From NCBI GenBank assembly GCA_036001065.1, contig DASYUQ010000025.1, positions 1 to 32,791 on the forward strand: DNA of 32,791 nt, given 5' to 3'. Source of the stretch: Candidatus Methylomirabilota bacterium (GTDB taxonomy: Bacteria > Methylomirabilota > Methylomirabilia > Rokubacteriales > CSP1-6). The notes beneath the pieces were generated by a model, which saw only the letters and a program-made list of their open reading frames with translations, did not search any database and was not told the origin of the DNA. A program made the translations under genes and the position numbers. Of this stretch, positions 25,882 to 30,767 are shown piece by piece (the first letter of the stretch is position 1; each line of letters opens with the position of its first letter).

Positions 25882-25918
25882 CGGGGGTCCCGCCCGGGGG
25901 GACCCCCGCCTTTCTTTT
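25882..25918 (+). terminator. Rho-independent terminator after the OmpA-family gene
   Basis: A perfect 9-bp stem CGGGGGTCC/GGACCCCCG (25882-25890 and 25900-25908) with a 9-nt loop is followed by CCTTTCTTTT. It separates the OmpA gene from the Os1348-like cassette. Confidence 0.85.
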
Positions 25919-25932
25919 CCGCTTCGCCGTGG

Positions 25933-25938
25933 TATGAT
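25933..25938 (+). promoter_or_regulatory. -10-like TATGAT before the Os1348-like gene
   Basis: TATGAT lies 10 nt before ATG 25949, just after the previous terminator, so a transcript would begin within a few bases of the start codon. No -35 consensus is clear. The near-leaderless arrangement fits the lack of a ribosome site. Confidence 0.4.
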
Positions 25939-25948
25939 CCCCCGCGTC

Positions 25949-26167
25949 ATGGCGCAACGACTGCCGGAGCTCGTGGGACGCGCGATGATCGACCCGGAAT
26001 TCCTGGCCGACCTGCAGCGCGCGCCCGAGTCCGTCCTGGCCAGCTACGAGTTGACGGACGACGAGCGTGCCGCCATCCGCACCGCGCTGGTCCGCCTGAC
26101 CCAGACGCCGACCACCCAGCGCGCGCAGGCCTTTCGCACCGCGCTCCTCCGCCGCGTCGCCACCTGA
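25949..26167 (+). CDS. Os1348/NHLP-like small protein, possible peptide precursor
   Basis: 72-aa protein from ATG 25949 (an ATG at 25934 overlaps the -10-like hexamer and is less likely). The core ELVGRAMIDPEFLADLQRAP, followed by ESVLASYELTDDERAAIRTAL, matches the helical pattern of Os1348-family and related NHLP/Nif11-clan small proteins, some of which act as leader parts of ribosomally made peptides. The C-terminal tail (TQTPTTQRAQAFRTALLRRVAT) is Thr/Gln/Arg-rich and has no Cys, so it is not a classic core peptide. It heads a three-gene cassette with a cyclic-nucleotide-binding protein and a PqqD-like/M50 membrane protein. Family assignment is by pattern and not by search. Confidence 0.6.
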   Translation: MAQRLPELVGRAMIDPEFLADLQRAPESVLASYELTDDERAAIRTALVRLTQTPTTQRAQAFRTALLRRVAT

Positions 26168-26182
26168 GCGGGGCGGCCCGCG

Positions 26183-26683
26183 GTGTCGAGTCCCGCCGAG
26201 ACCGCCGCGTTCCTCAAGACCGTCCGCCTGTTCAAGGAGTTCGCCCAGCCGGAGCTGCTGGCCTTCGCCTCGCGTCTGCGCGAGCGGGCGCTCCGGAAGG
26301 GGCAGGTCCTGTTTCGCGAGGGGGACGCCGGTCAGGAGATGTTCGTCGTGCGCGGGGGCACCGCGCTCATCTCCAAGGCGGTCACCGGACGCGTCGAGAA
26401 GGTGCTGGGGCGGGAGGGGGCCGGCGACTTCTTCGGTGAGATGAGCCTCTTCGACCGCGCCCCGCGCTCGGCCACGGTCCAGGCCGAGACCGACGTGGAG
26501 CTGCTCGTCCTCGACCGCGACAACCTGAACCTTCTCATCGAGGTCAACCCGCGCGCGGCCGCCGCCTTCTTCCACGCCCTCGTGCACGTCTTCATCGACC
26601 GGCTCCGCGCTTCCGGGAACCTCGTCGCCGAGGTGACGCGCTGGGGCCTGGAGGCCACGGGGCTGGACGTGGAGTCGCGATGA
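26183..26683 (+). CDS. Cyclic-nucleotide-binding domain protein
   Basis: 166-aa single-domain protein of the Crp/cAMP-binding fold without an HTH. The phosphate-binding cassette FFGEMSLFDRAPRSATV has the conserved Glu and Arg, so it probably binds cNMP or a relative. The beta-roll start GQVLFREGDAGQEMFVVRGG is canonical. GTG 26183 follows the Os1348-like stop by 15 nt, and the TGA overlaps the next ATG (ATGA). It lies between a putative peptide gene and a membrane protease-like gene, so it may gate that process by second messenger; inference. Confidence 0.85.
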   Translation: MSSPAETAAFLKTVRLFKEFAQPELLAFASRLRERALRKGQVLFREGDAGQEMFVVRGGTALISKAVTGRVEKVLGREGAGDFFGEMSLFDRAPRSATVQAETDVELLVLDRDNLNLLIEVNPRAAAAFFHALVHVFIDRLRASGNLVAEVTRWGLEATGLDVESR

Positions 26684-27906
26684 CGGTCGGCCCGCCGCCG
26701 CGGCGGGCGAAGCTCGAGCTGCTCGTCCGCGGCGACGACGCGGAGAGCTTCGAGGTCCGGGAGGTCGGCAGCGCGGCGGCCTGGCTCCAGCTGCGGCCGA
26801 CCCGCGTGCCGGAGGACGCCTGGGAGCTCGCCGAGGTGACCTCCCGGGTCGGCCCGCAGCAGAACTTCGTCCTCAAGAACACCCGCACCGATCGCTTCCT
26901 GATGCTTTCCGAGCGCGAGCGCTTCCTGTGGGACCACATGGACGGGCGCACGTCGCTGCAGGACCTCGCCACGGCCTACGTGCTCGAGTATGGCGCGTTC
27001 GATTTCGAGGTGATTCCCGCGCTCATCCGCAAGCTCCAGCGGGCCGAGCTGCTCACGCTCACGCCGGCCTCCGTGCTCCGCCGGGTCCTGGCTCGCAACC
27101 GCCGGCGCTGGCTGCTCCAGATGGCGGAGCGGGCGCTGACCGCGCTGGAGCGGATCAACGTCTCCAGCCGAGGGGTGCAGCCGTTCTTCGAGCGGCTCTA
27201 TCGCGGGGGCGGCTTTCTCCTCTTCACGCGCGCCGCCGTCGTGCTCTGCCTCCTGCTGGGGGCAGTCGGGATCGTCGCCGGCGTGCGACTGTGGCCCGAG
27301 GCCGACGCCATCGCCCAAGGCCTCGGCGCCAACCCCGTGAAGGCGATCCTAGTCGTCAAGCTGTTCTTCTTCGTGACGGTGGCGTTGCACCAGATCGTCC
27401 ACGGCCTGGCCCTCGTCCATTACGGCCGCCGCGTCCGCGAGTTCGGCTTCACCTTCTTGCACGGCTTCGTCCCGACGTTCTACGTGGACGTCACAGACAT
27501 CTTCATGGCCAGCCGGCGGGCCCGGGTGGTCACCGCGCTCTCGGGCACGCTGGTGCACCTCGTCCTGGGGGCGCTGTGGTTCGTGCTCGCCGCGCGGCTG
27601 CCGGCCGGGTTCGCCCAGGCCTTCTGCGCCACCTCGGGCATGATCCAGTGGCAGGCTTTCGTCATCGCGCTCTATCCCTGCTGCTTCATCGAGATGGACG
27701 GCTACCACGTGCTCGTCGACCTGCTGGGCGTCCCCACCCTCAAGCAGGACGCGCTGGCCTACGTGGGGTCGCTCTTCCGGGCCGCGCCGGTCGTCCCCTG
27801 GGGCCGGGAGGCCGGGCTCTGGATCGGCTACGTCGCCGTCTCCACCGTCTCCGTGGCCGCCTTCGTGGCGTTCAACGTCTGGGTGATCGTGCACGCGACG
27901 ACCTGA
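26680..27906 (+). CDS. PqqD-like domain fused to M50-family membrane protein with HQxxH
   Basis: 408-aa protein. Residues about 66-130 (FLMLSERERFLWDHMDG, then LATAYVLEYGAFDFEVIPAL) resemble the PqqD/RRE-type winged-helix peptide-binding domain. Residues about 180-400 are membrane-embedded and match the M50 zinc-protease branch linked to peptide-export and NHLM systems, including FYVDVTDIFMASRRARVV and EMDGYHVLVDLLGVP. The usual HExxH is H237-Q238-I-V-H241, i.e. Glu to Gln, whereas the distal Asp (D340 in EMDGY) is kept. It is probably a pseudoprotease that binds or inserts peptides. It starts in an ATGA overlap with the cNMP-binding gene. Confidence 0.8.
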   Translation: MTVGPPPRRAKLELLVRGDDAESFEVREVGSAAAWLQLRPTRVPEDAWELAEVTSRVGPQQNFVLKNTRTDRFLMLSERERFLWDHMDGRTSLQDLATAYVLEYGAFDFEVIPALIRKLQRAELLTLTPASVLRRVLARNRRRWLLQMAERALTALERINVSSRGVQPFFERLYRGGGFLLFTRAAVVLCLLLGAVGIVAGVRLWPEADAIAQGLGANPVKAILVVKLFFFVTVALHQIVHGLALVHYGRRVREFGFTFLHGFVPTFYVDVTDIFMASRRARVVTALSGTLVHLVLGALWFVLAARLPAGFAQAFCATSGMIQWQAFVIALYPCCFIEMDGYHVLVDLLGVPTLKQDALAYVGSLFRAAPVVPWGREAGLWIGYVAVSTVSVAAFVAFNVWVIVHATT

Positions 27907-27952: not shown

Positions 27953-29299
27953 TCAGCTCGCCGCGTCGGCCAGCAACGCTTCGACCGCGGTGGTGATGGC
28001 GCGCGCGTCCGTCCCGGCGGCGGGCAGAGTCGTCGACGAGAGCCGCGTGCGCTGCTCGGCCTCGCCCAGAGCCGCCACCCGGGCCTGGGCGCGAGCCCGC
28101 AGCGCGTCCGCCAGCAGCAGCGCGATCTCGCTGAGCGCGGCCAGCGCGGTGGCGGCCTCCTGGGGGGGTGATTGTGCCTCCCGCAGCAGCTCGCGGAGAC
28201 GCTCGCGCACGCGCGTCGACACGCGCGCGCCGTTGCCGCGCACCTCGAGCAGGTCTCCGGGGACCGGGCCCCACTCGAGCGCCAGCTCCTGCGCGTCCGC
28301 CCGGATGAACGGCGCCAGCGGGGCGGCGCTGGTCGCCGCCACGACCGCGCCGATGCCGCCCGCCACGGCGTCGGCCAGGGGCCGCGTGCCCGAGGCGGGC
28401 GGCGCGTCCTCGGCGAGGCGTGTCACCTCGCCCTCACGTGTCAGCTCCAGGTGATCGGCCACGGGGCCACCGAGGACCCAGAGCGAGCAGCGCACGCGGT
28501 CCTCGACGTCCCGCACCCGGCGGGGCGCGTGGCGCGCGATGCCCTCCCAGTCCGGCCGGTAGTACGGGCGACCACGCCAGACCACCTTCTCGATGCGCCC
28601 GCGGAGCTGCACGTACGCGCCCTCGGGCGTGAAGACGCGCTCGTGCGGGGCGGGGCGCCAGGCGAGCGAGAGGTCCATGAAGGCCGCCAGCGGATCGTCC
28701 GTGGACGTCTCGTAGCGGAACGACTCCAGAAGGGCGAGGAAGAGCTGCTCCGTCGGATAGGGGCCGCCATACGCGATGCCGGTGCGCCGCTGGTCGGCGG
28801 CCAGCGCCGCGATCAGGTTCAGGACGGCGATCCCCCCGCTCGGCGGCAGCCGGCCGGGCTCGGCGAGCGTCGGGATCCGGTCGATGCCGGCGTAGTCGAG
28901 CGCGTCGTAGACGGTGAGGGGCGTGCCGGCCGCTCCCACGCGCTCGGCGTGCCAGACGCGGTCGGAGAGTCCCCAGGGGGCGTCCGCCGCCGCCCGTGGC
29001 TCGATACGCAGCCACGAGCGGTCGGCGATGCGGACCCACGCCGCCGCGAGAGTGTCGGCCGACCAGCGGAGGGCGCAGAGCGGCGCGCCGTGGCGGTCGA
29101 GCTCCAGCGCGCGGCGCCGGGGCCCTCCGGGGGGCGGCGCGTAGCCGACGATGGTGCCGTGAGCCTCGACGACGAAGTCGCCCGCGCCGGCCTGGCCCCC
29201 GAGGGCCCGCCGCAGATGCGCGGCGGTCGCGGGACCGACGGCCCCCGCCAGCTCGTCGTCGAGCCGCGACAGGAGCCGCGCGGCGTGTCCGACGTCCAC
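27953..29299 (-). CDS. Uncharacterised 448-aa protein, convergent with the M50 gene
   Basis: 448-aa soluble protein starting at GTG 29297-29299 (a longer reading to 29941 runs antisense through the amidase and is rejected). It has no membrane segments and no familiar motif. The N-terminal half has Gly-Pro-rich loops and an LSDRVWHAERVG segment; the middle holds GIAYGGPYPTEQLFLALLES, then RGRIEKVVWRGRPYYRPDW; the C-terminal third is Ala/Arg-rich helix (LSEIALLLADALRARAQARV). TATCAT sits 7 nt upstream, so the mRNA may be leaderless. It ends 46 nt from the M50-like gene, facing it. Function unknown; homologues should be sought, as codon use is that of a real gene. Confidence 0.7.
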   Translation of the reverse strand: MDVGHAARLLSRLDDELAGAVGPATAAHLRRALGGQAGAGDFVVEAHGTIVGYAPPPGGPRRRALELDRHGAPLCALRWSADTLAAAWVRIADRSWLRIEPRAAADAPWGLSDRVWHAERVGAAGTPLTVYDALDYAGIDRIPTLAEPGRLPPSGGIAVLNLIAALAADQRRTGIAYGGPYPTEQLFLALLESFRYETSTDDPLAAFMDLSLAWRPAPHERVFTPEGAYVQLRGRIEKVVWRGRPYYRPDWEGIARHAPRRVRDVEDRVRCSLWVLGGPVADHLELTREGEVTRLAEDAPPASGTRPLADAVAGGIGAVVAATSAAPLAPFIRADAQELALEWGPVPGDLLEVRGNGARVSTRVRERLRELLREAQSPPQEAATALAALSEIALLLADALRARAQARVAALGEAEQRTRLSSTTLPAAGTDARAITTAVEALLADAAS

Positions 29300-29306
29300 G
29301 GAGCGG

Positions 29307-29316
29307 ATGATACAAT
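29307..29316. promoter_or_regulatory. Overlapping divergent -10 hexamers
   Basis: ATGATACAAT contains TACAAT on the plus strand (29311-29316), 6 nt before the GTG of a mini-ORF, and TATCAT on the minus strand (29307-29312), 7 nt before the GTG of the 448-aa gene. Both imply leaderless starts, and a single polymerase could occupy only one direction at a time. Clear -35 boxes are missing on both sides. Confidence 0.4.
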
Positions 29317-29322
29317 GCACGA

Positions 29323-29358
29323 GTGGATAACAAGATCGAGGTGCTGACCTCCGCGTGA
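29323..29358 (+). CDS. Possible 11-codon upstream ORF coupled to the amidase
   Basis: GTG GAT AAC AAG ... GCG TGA encodes MDNKIEVLTSA, and the A of its TGA is the A of the amidase ATG (TGATG). A TACAAT hexamer six nt before its GTG would allow a leaderless transcript. The amidase itself has no good Shine-Dalgarno upstream, so re-initiation from this mini-ORF is plausible. It may also be chance. Confidence 0.35.
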   Translation: MDNKIEVLTSA

Positions 29359-30767
29359 TGAATCCCGAGGAGCTGATCTGGCGCTCCGCGCTGGAGCTCG
29401 TCGACCTCGTTCGGTCCAAGCAGCTCTCACCGGTCGAGATCACCGAGGCGGTGCTCGCGCGCATCGAGGCCCTCAATCCCCGCCTGAACGCCGTCTGCCT
29501 CGTGGCCCACGATGCCGCCCGCCGCGCCGCCCGGGAGGCCGAGATCGCCGTGGTCAAGCGTGAGCCGCTGGGGCCGCTACAGGGCGCGCCCGTCTCCATC
29601 AAGGACGTCATCTTCACGCGCGGCCTGCGCACGACCGGTGGCTCGCGCCTGTTCGCCGAGGTCGTGCCCGAGGAGGACGCGGTGGCGGTGGCGCGCCTGC
29701 GCGCGGCCGGGGCCGTCATCACGGGCAAGACCAACACGTCGGAGTTCGGCCACAAGGCCGTCACCGAGAACCCGCTGTTCGGGATCACGCGCAACCCCTG
29801 GAACCTCGAACTGACGCCGGGCGGCTCCAGCGGGGGCGCCGCGGCAGCGGTGGCCGCCGGCCTGGGGCCGCTCGGCCTCGGCACGGACGGGGGTGGATCC
29901 ATCCGCATTCCGGCCGCGTTCTGCGCGGTGTACGGCTTCAAGCCCTCCTGGGGACGCGTGCCTCAGCATCCGGGCTTTCCGGGCTGGGACTACGTCGGCT
30001 GCACGGGCCCCATCACGCGGACCGTGCGCGACGCCGCGCTCGTGCTCGACGTCATCGCCGGGGGGGACGATCGCGATCGCTACTCGCTGCCCCGCGAGGC
30101 GGGCTCCTATCTGGAGGCCTGCGACGAGGAGATCAAGGGCTTCCACGTCGCCTGGACCGCCGACCTCGGCTATGCGGCGGTCGACCCGCGCGTCCAGGCG
30201 GTCTGCGAGAACGCGGCGGCCGAGTTCGAGGCGCTCGGCTGTCACGTCGAGGTGGTGAATCCGGGCTGGGACAGTCCCGAGGAGGTCTTCGGCACGCTGA
30301 TCGCGGCGCAGTTCTACGCGCACTGGTCCGATCACCTTCCGGCCGCCGAGGCGCTGCTCGATCCGACGCTGGTGAAGCTCATCCGGCGCGGGGGCGCAAT
30401 CAGCGCGCGTGATTACCTCGTCGCCGCCGAGCGCGTGAAGGGCTACTGGAGCGAGGTGCAGGGTTTCCTGGCGCGCTTCGACCTGCTGCTCACGCCGACC
30501 GTCGCCGTGCCGCCGTTTGCCGCCGGTCAGGCGCCGCCGCGGGAGATCGCCGGCCAGGACGTCTCGGTGCTGGGCTGGATGCCTTTCACCTATCCGTTCA
30601 ATCTCACGGGCCAGCCCGCGGCCAGCGTGCCGGCGGGCTTCACGGACGACGGCTTGCCCGTCGGCCTGCAAATCATCGGGCGGCGCCACGCCGACCGGGC
30701 GGTGCTGGCCGCGTCGGCGGCCTACGAGACGGCGTGCCCGTGGAGTGAGCGGCGCCCGCCGCTGTGA
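29358..30767 (+). CDS. AS-family amidase (GatA-like)
   Basis: 469-aa amidase-signature hydrolase. The triad Lys82 (VSIKDV), Ser157/158 (GGSSGGA) and Ser181 (DGGGSIRIP) is complete. It lacks the N-terminal extension seen on the amidase at 15982 and the gatB/gatC neighbours expected for a Glu-tRNA amidotransferase, so it is likely a free amidase; the substrate is unknown. ATG 29358 is preferred to GTG 29355 because the ATG overlaps a mini-ORF stop. It overlaps the following membrane gene (GTGA). Confidence 0.93.
   Translation: MNPEELIWRSALELVDLVRSKQLSPVEITEAVLARIEALNPRLNAVCLVAHDAARRAAREAEIAVVKREPLGPLQGAPVSIKDVIFTRGLRTTGGSRLFAEVVPEEDAVAVARLRAAGAVITGKTNTSEFGHKAVTENPLFGITRNPWNLELTPGGSSGGAAAAVAAGLGPLGLGTDGGGSIRIPAAFCAVYGFKPSWGRVPQHPGFPGWDYVGCTGPITRTVRDAALVLDVIAGGDDRDRYSLPREAGSYLEACDEEIKGFHVAWTADLGYAAVDPRVQAVCENAAAEFEALGCHVEVVNPGWDSPEEVFGTLIAAQFYAHWSDHLPAAEALLDPTLVKLIRRGGAISARDYLVAAERVKGYWSEVQGFLARFDLLLTPTVAVPPFAAGQAPPREIAGQDVSVLGWMPFTYPFNLTGQPAASVPAGFTDDGLPVGLQIIGRRHADRAVLAASAAYETACPWSERRPPL

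Follow-up and report, generated by a model that had tools for sequence, protein, structure and literature searches.

A conserved three-gene unit of a Rokubacterial family encodes a probable site-2 pseudoprotease with an RRE/PqqD-like domain, together with an Os1348-like protein and a cyclic-nucleotide-binding protein

The three-gene unit described here is kept across one family of Rokubacteria. Its third gene encodes a relative of the site-2 proteases in which the catalytic glutamate is replaced by glutamine in every ortholog, and all three metal ligands are retained. In the predicted structure, an RRE/PqqD-like domain is fused to the site-2-protease fold. The protein is therefore unlikely to cut its substrate, because the equivalent change abolishes the activity of SpoIVFB. 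We propose, tentatively, that it may bind or sequester the small Os1348-like protein encoded by gene 1, and that the cyclic-nucleotide-binding protein encoded by gene 2 may control this binding.

The three-gene unit and its distribution

The window, that is, the whole stretch of 32,791 nucleotides that was analysed, belongs to a genome of Candidatus Rokubacteria (4.46 Mb, 239 contigs), which served as the reference genome (G000). The unit lies at positions 25949-27906 (+). Its three ORFs were present exactly as claimed in the original prediction, including their coordinates, the 15-nt gap between genes 1 and 2 and the ATGA overlap between genes 2 and 3. Gene 1 (25949..26167, +) encodes a 72-aa Os1348/NHLP-clan-like helical protein. 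Gene 2 (26183..26683, +) has a GTG start and encodes a stand-alone cyclic-nucleotide-binding protein of 166 aa. Gene 3 (26680..27906, +) encodes a protein of 408 aa, the probable pseudoprotease. The left border of the unit is a terminator-like hairpin with a T-rich tail (25882..25918, +; hairpin with T tract at 25882-25908), located exactly at the 3' end of the upstream OmpA-like gene. A hairpin with a T tract does stand where a strong terminator had been predicted, but the pattern by itself is weak, since 2 such sites were found and 1.4 were expected. No RiPP-modifying enzyme was detected among the window ORFs scanned, in agreement with the predicted absence of radical SAM, YcaO and lanthionine enzymes. 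Downstream of the unit, a convergent ORF (27956-29371, -) is kept in about 47 of 53 loci. It has no Pfam match and is divergent from an amidase gene.

An extended -10 element, TGG-TATGAT (25930..25938, +), is positioned 10 nt before the start codon of gene 1, an arrangement of the leaderless-mRNA type. The hexamer TAT[GCA]AT, preceded by T[GC]N and ending 6-10 nt 5' of the gene 1 start, occurs in 35 of the 54 orthologs, where shuffled sequences would give 0.3. Among the remaining 19 orthologs without the extended -10 element, 16 have a Shine-Dalgarno-like site before gene 1. At the same gene 1 start, one part of the family has a leaderless-type promoter and another part a Shine-Dalgarno site, and this split preserves a natural trace of a change in how translation is initiated. 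The start of gene 1 at 25949 is considered correct because the in-frame upstream ATG at 25934 sits inside the conserved -10 element. No extended -10 hexamer was found before genes 2 and 3 in the ortholog loci scanned. Because the element precedes gene 1 only, the pattern is consistent with a single transcription unit that begins at gene 1 and would be leaderless in most family members.

Gene 3 has strong orthologs (about 50-93% identity) in 55 of the 57 genomes of the same family, a count that includes one genome with the gene divided over two contigs. Among the 38 remaining genomes of the class or phylum, no strong ortholog was found. Genes 1 and 2 showed the same pattern (each 55/57 and 0/38), where orthologs of gene 2 were counted by profile at E <= 1e-40. 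The order and strand of the three genes were identical in all 53 ortholog loci fetched, which counts as a single evolutionary gain and not as 53 independent events because every genome comes from a single clade. Genes 2 and 3 retain their 4-nt overlap in 31 of these loci. Co-occurrence beyond chance, which had been named as a check of the original prediction, was therefore found. One of the two exceptional genomes (G079) is uninformative on the absence of the unit because its contig stops at the neighbouring gene, before the locus. In the other (G067), the unit is absent and its flanks are joined on one contig (L161:2918-3029). Where the sister genome G068 has 3.3 kb (L076:5456-8759), G067 has about 110 bp that contain no N. 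This deletion is clean, and therefore the module can be lost as a whole.

No upstream gene family is common to more than 14 of the 53 loci, and about 47 of them share the downstream neighbours. The dN/dS values from pairs of close relatives were mostly 0.08-0.33 for all three genes, although the closest pair had too few changes to judge in the case of gene 1. The overall result indicates that the unit is one gain kept under selection, and that it is a vertically inherited near-core module of one Rokubacterial family. A single-sequence scan of public contigs, with a reach limited to close relatives, gave close orthologs in records of Candidatus Rokubacteria (Rokuibacteriota). No plasmid copies of gene 1 were found and no viral copies were confirmed. 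A function in anti-phage defence was rejected, as the PADLOC matches were to cNMP domains only.

The cyclic-nucleotide-binding protein and the coupling of the genes

Gene 2 matched PF00027 at 1.4e-22 with 79.9 bits, above the curated cut-off of 27.5, and its closest solved relatives are cAMP/cGMP-binding regulators. Its phosphate-binding cassette, FGEMSLFDRAPR (26432..26467, +), is canonical, and E86 and R95 are invariant. The C-terminal motif, EVTRWGLEATGLD (26630..26668, +), is invariant at 10 of 13 positions in 40 sequences. A partial match to TIGR03896 was also obtained (1.9e-12). In the TIGR03896/NHLM transport-associated cNMP proteins and HetC (PMC10986499), a cyclic-nucleotide-binding domain is tied to peptide maturation or export. 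Gene 2 differs from them in being a single domain, and neither an ABC exporter nor a peptidase-transporter is present at the unit. Because class III cyclases are encoded in all 57 family genomes, with nine matches in the reference genome, a second-messenger input to the three genes is possible.

Solitary cNMP paralogs (L134-L141) occur in eight genomes. They are longer than gene 2, carry the same C-terminal RWGLEATG motif and have no partner genes nearby. Most of them carry an N-terminal extension of the RNRPE type, which is rich in arginine (DRRRRERR). The RWGLEATG motif was considered as an operon-specific docking motif and was rejected, since the solitary paralogs also carry it.

Distance correlations were calculated with the neighbouring amidase as control. 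They were 0.48 for genes 1 and 3, 0.48 for genes 2 and 3, and 0.26 for genes 1 and 2, as mirror-tree values that carry no valid p-value. The same correlations of the convergent neighbour with the three genes were -0.05, 0.17, and 0.03. This ORF was rejected as a fourth member in spite of its conservation, as it lacks both a Pfam match and a co-evolution signal with the unit. The signal among the three genes would place gene 3 at the centre. Co-transcription without a common complex was also considered. For example, gene 2 could encode a sensor of general use and gene 3 a membrane receptor with no relation to it, the two being joined through inheritance of the operon. The partnerless paralogs of gene 2 with the same C-terminal motif are in line with such an arrangement, as are the generally conserved downstream synteny and the origin of all genomes from one clade. 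However, the gene order is kept in every locus although the upstream genes turn over, genes 2 and 3 overlap in translation, and the co-evolution signal is centred on gene 3. We regard separate functions as rather unlikely.

Fold and catalytic site of the gene 3 protein

The profile match of gene 3 to Pfam PqqD (E 0.015, 16.0 bits) was below the curated cut-off of 23.4, and 27 of 53 orthologs matched this profile at E <= 0.1. The match to the M50 profile was also below the cut-off (E 0.18). Better matches were obtained with the daptide metalloprotease NF041824 (5.6e-28) and LiaK (3.6e-13), both again below cut-off. The structure model of gene 3 is of moderate confidence (pLDDT 78, pTM 0.61). 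Residues 38-130 (26791..27069, +) form a winged-helix RRE fold in the model. This domain was matched by VIA-align to 5v1v (Z 9.9, rmsd 2.7 over 84), 6jx3 (Z 9.8), and 5sxy (Z 8.5), and by Foldseek to TbiB1 (prob 1.00). Residues 167-403 adopt a site-2-protease fold, with matches to 8vjl (Z 10.0 over 160 residues), 7w6y (Z 9.8), and 3b4r (Z 8.8). E-to-Q variants of SpoIVFB and RseP (8vjm, 9j83) are among the structural matches. The fusion of a PqqD-like domain with an M50 domain, as originally proposed, is therefore seen in the predicted structure, and structure prediction, which had been named as a further check, gives an RRE/PqqD fold for the first domain. RRE folds are found also in proteins without peptide binding. 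Within gene 3, the RRE helices are conserved (0.79-0.84), and conservation is highest in the re-entrant-loop region (residues 248-278; 0.90 mean identity). In site-2 proteases, a re-entrant substrate loop lies between the metal motifs.

The metal site of gene 3 is kept and its catalytic residues are not. The motif HQIVH (H237-Q238-H241; 27388..27402, +) retains the metal ligands, and Gln stands in place of the catalytic Glu (HExxH) in 54 of 54 orthologs. The Gln238 codon is CAG in 52 and CAA in 2 of them, both one base from Glu. The motif Y332...E338-M-D340-G-Y-H343 (27673..27708, +) contains the third metal ligand, D340, and is invariant in the orthologs. All three ligands, H237, H241, and D340, are conserved in 54/54 orthologs. 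The Asn at position -8 of the metal Asp is replaced by Tyr332 and the Lys/Arg at position -2 by E338; these two residues and H343 are invariant as well. The distant relatives with a readable motif, namely Rokubacterial paralogs and plasmid-borne relatives, daptide mpaP among them, all have HExxH. Position -8 is Asn in the aligned distant relatives, except for an Anoxybacillus protein without the DG motif. As known from the mjS2P literature, the -8 Asn assists catalysis. E-to-Q changes are used as laboratory trap mutants, made by structural biologists to hold substrates. In SpoIVFB, the same substitution (E44Q) abolishes proteolysis, while the substrate still co-purifies (PMC11486902). Proteolysis by gene 3 is accordingly unlikely, because this very change is found in all orthologs, and the claim that the M50 protein cleaves or processes could not be upheld. 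Gene 3 is very likely a non-cleaving relative of the site-2 proteases. Judged from its residues, it is probably a pseudoprotease that retains binding.

Gene 3 could still be an enzyme if the general base had moved to E338, two residues from D340, with a slow or altered metal-dependent activity. In place of the Lys/Arg of distant relatives, E338 is invariant, as are H343 and all three metal ligands, and the gene is under purifying selection. On the other hand, the -8 Asn is likewise replaced, by Tyr, and we know of no precedent for a relocated general base in site-2 proteases. We consider a moved base unlikely and retain the non-cleaving protein as the better explanation.

The known relatives of gene 3 differ from it in several features. 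It shares its RiPP-associated M50-type domain with the daptide metalloprotease MpaP (NF041824) and YydH/LiaK. The MpaP profile scores 98.1 bits against a cut-off of 300; it spans residues 60-368 and so takes in a large share of the RRE-like part. However, MpaP keeps HExxH and sits in daptide clusters with mpaC/D/M, whereas no daptide enzymes were found among the window ORFs and conserved neighbours of the unit. The fold and the three metal ligands are shared with SpoIVFB, RseP, and mjS2P, in which the catalytic Glu and Asn are not replaced. SpoIVFB also has a cytoplasmic regulatory domain (CBS); gene 3 has an RRE domain instead of CBS or PDZ, and its cNMP sensor is a separate protein. Proteins of the PqqD-M50-HlyD type (L105-L122), which combine similar parts, are found in the same genomes. 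They differ in their open frames of about 450-925 aa, their intact HExxH and their LDGYY/YDGYY motifs, and they are not adjacent to Os or cNMP genes; elsewhere, such proteins adjoin RND/HlyD genes. The closest architecture seen outside Rokubacteria is a stand-alone 371-aa PqqD-M50 protein on an Anoxybacillus plasmid (L150:2413-3528). It has HEFSH, lacks the DG motif and is located in a thiocillin-type RiPP cluster. EGY3, a plant site-2 pseudoprotease (PMC10978774), is an inactive relative that acts by stabilising other proteins. Unlike gene 3, it lacks the zinc motif, has no known RRE and is a chloroplast protein.

The Os1348-like protein and the proposed mechanism

Gene 1 matched NF038399 (Os1348) at 5e-10 with 39.3 bits, just below the curated cut-off of 40, and all of its 53 orthologs matched at E <= 0.01. 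Its profile also matched the crystal structure of Os1348 (6lk7) at 1.3e-4. The structure model of gene 1 has five helices (pLDDT 79). The fold search with this model was weak, with a best Z of 4.4, and 6lk7 was not among the listed folds. The kinship rests on the sequence profiles, by which gene 1 is homologous to Os1348. It is more distantly homologous to LigA-like and nitrile hydratase alpha helices. The other clear NF038399-like matches in the reference genome (L126, L127) are an apparent true nitrile hydratase alpha subunit (metal motif CTLCSC) and an apparent small LigA-like protein adjoining a LigB-type dioxygenase gene. In Pseudomonas sp. Os17, Os1348 is dimeric, and the amount of the protein is governed by genes downstream of its own (PMC7726476). 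Like gene 1, it is the first gene of an operon, which includes a putative metallopeptidase (PMC7726476, PDB 6lk7). That operon differs in its acetyltransferase, gluzincin, and SagB-type genes and has no cNMP or RRE-M50 gene.

Gene 1 had been put forward as a precursor, with a variable C-terminal core named as a feature to look for. Its length is constant at 72-73 aa in all orthologs, and no hypervariable C-terminal core is present in them. The C-terminus is conserved as (R/K)R(V/W)AT, with 63% mean identity over the last 13 residues and R69 invariant, and no modification or export genes are conserved nearby in the 53 ortholog loci. These features do not agree with a RiPP precursor. A daptide kinship based on the conserved C-terminal Thr was rejected, as five orthologs end in Met and daptide enzymes are absent nearby. 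A device in which gene 1 is recruited through the RRE domain of gene 3 and cleaved or exported under cNMP control would be supported by the relatedness of gene 3 to RiPP metalloproteases of the daptide and YydH/LiaK types, by its RRE fold and by the Os1348/NHLP-clan relationship of gene 1, but it is improbable in view of the HQxxH motif in 54/54 orthologs, the fixed and coreless gene 1, the lack of a conserved modification enzyme or exporter, and the vertical inheritance in 55/57 genomes, as RiPP clusters are usually patchy. An active RiPP protease was rejected on account of the HQxxH motif and the missing core.

We propose the following mechanism instead. The three genes would be expressed as one unit, and gene 3 would be a membrane-embedded site-2-protease relative. 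Lacking the general-base Glu and the partner Asn but keeping the metal ligands, the substrate-loop region and the N-terminal RRE/PqqD domain, it may hold a peptide or protein without cutting it, as a natural counterpart of the laboratory E-to-Q trap mutants. The likeliest partner of the RRE domain would be the co-encoded helical protein of gene 1, or else another peptide. The gene 2 protein may bind cAMP or cGMP and switch capture or release accordingly. The mechanism as a whole, in which a pseudo-site-2-protease with an RRE domain would respond to cNMP and bind or sequester a small Os1348-like partner, is plausible, although we stop somewhat short of calling it probable. A more speculative reading is a signalling complex common to the whole lineage. 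Here a second messenger would control an intramembrane protease that is catalytically dead and carries a recognition domain of the RiPP type, and the ligand of this protease would be a conserved, unprocessed NHLP-clan protein.

Each part of the unit has known relatives. In a targeted literature search, no description was found of their combination or of a lineage-wide disabled site. To our knowledge, conserved site-2 pseudoproteases have hardly been described outside plants. The inactivating swap in gene 3 is the same E-to-Q change that is used for substrate trapping in the laboratory, and here it is fixed across a bacterial family. The unit also presents an RRE domain together with an Os1348-like protein in a setting that looks non-RiPP and vertically inherited. 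This is relevant to the question of why some genes of the Os1348/NHLP clan are without modification enzymes. If the proposed mechanism is true, RiPP recognition parts would have been reused in membrane signalling rather than in natural-product synthesis. The unit also offers a concrete and testable handle on signalling in the Rokubacteria, an uncultured soil lineage.
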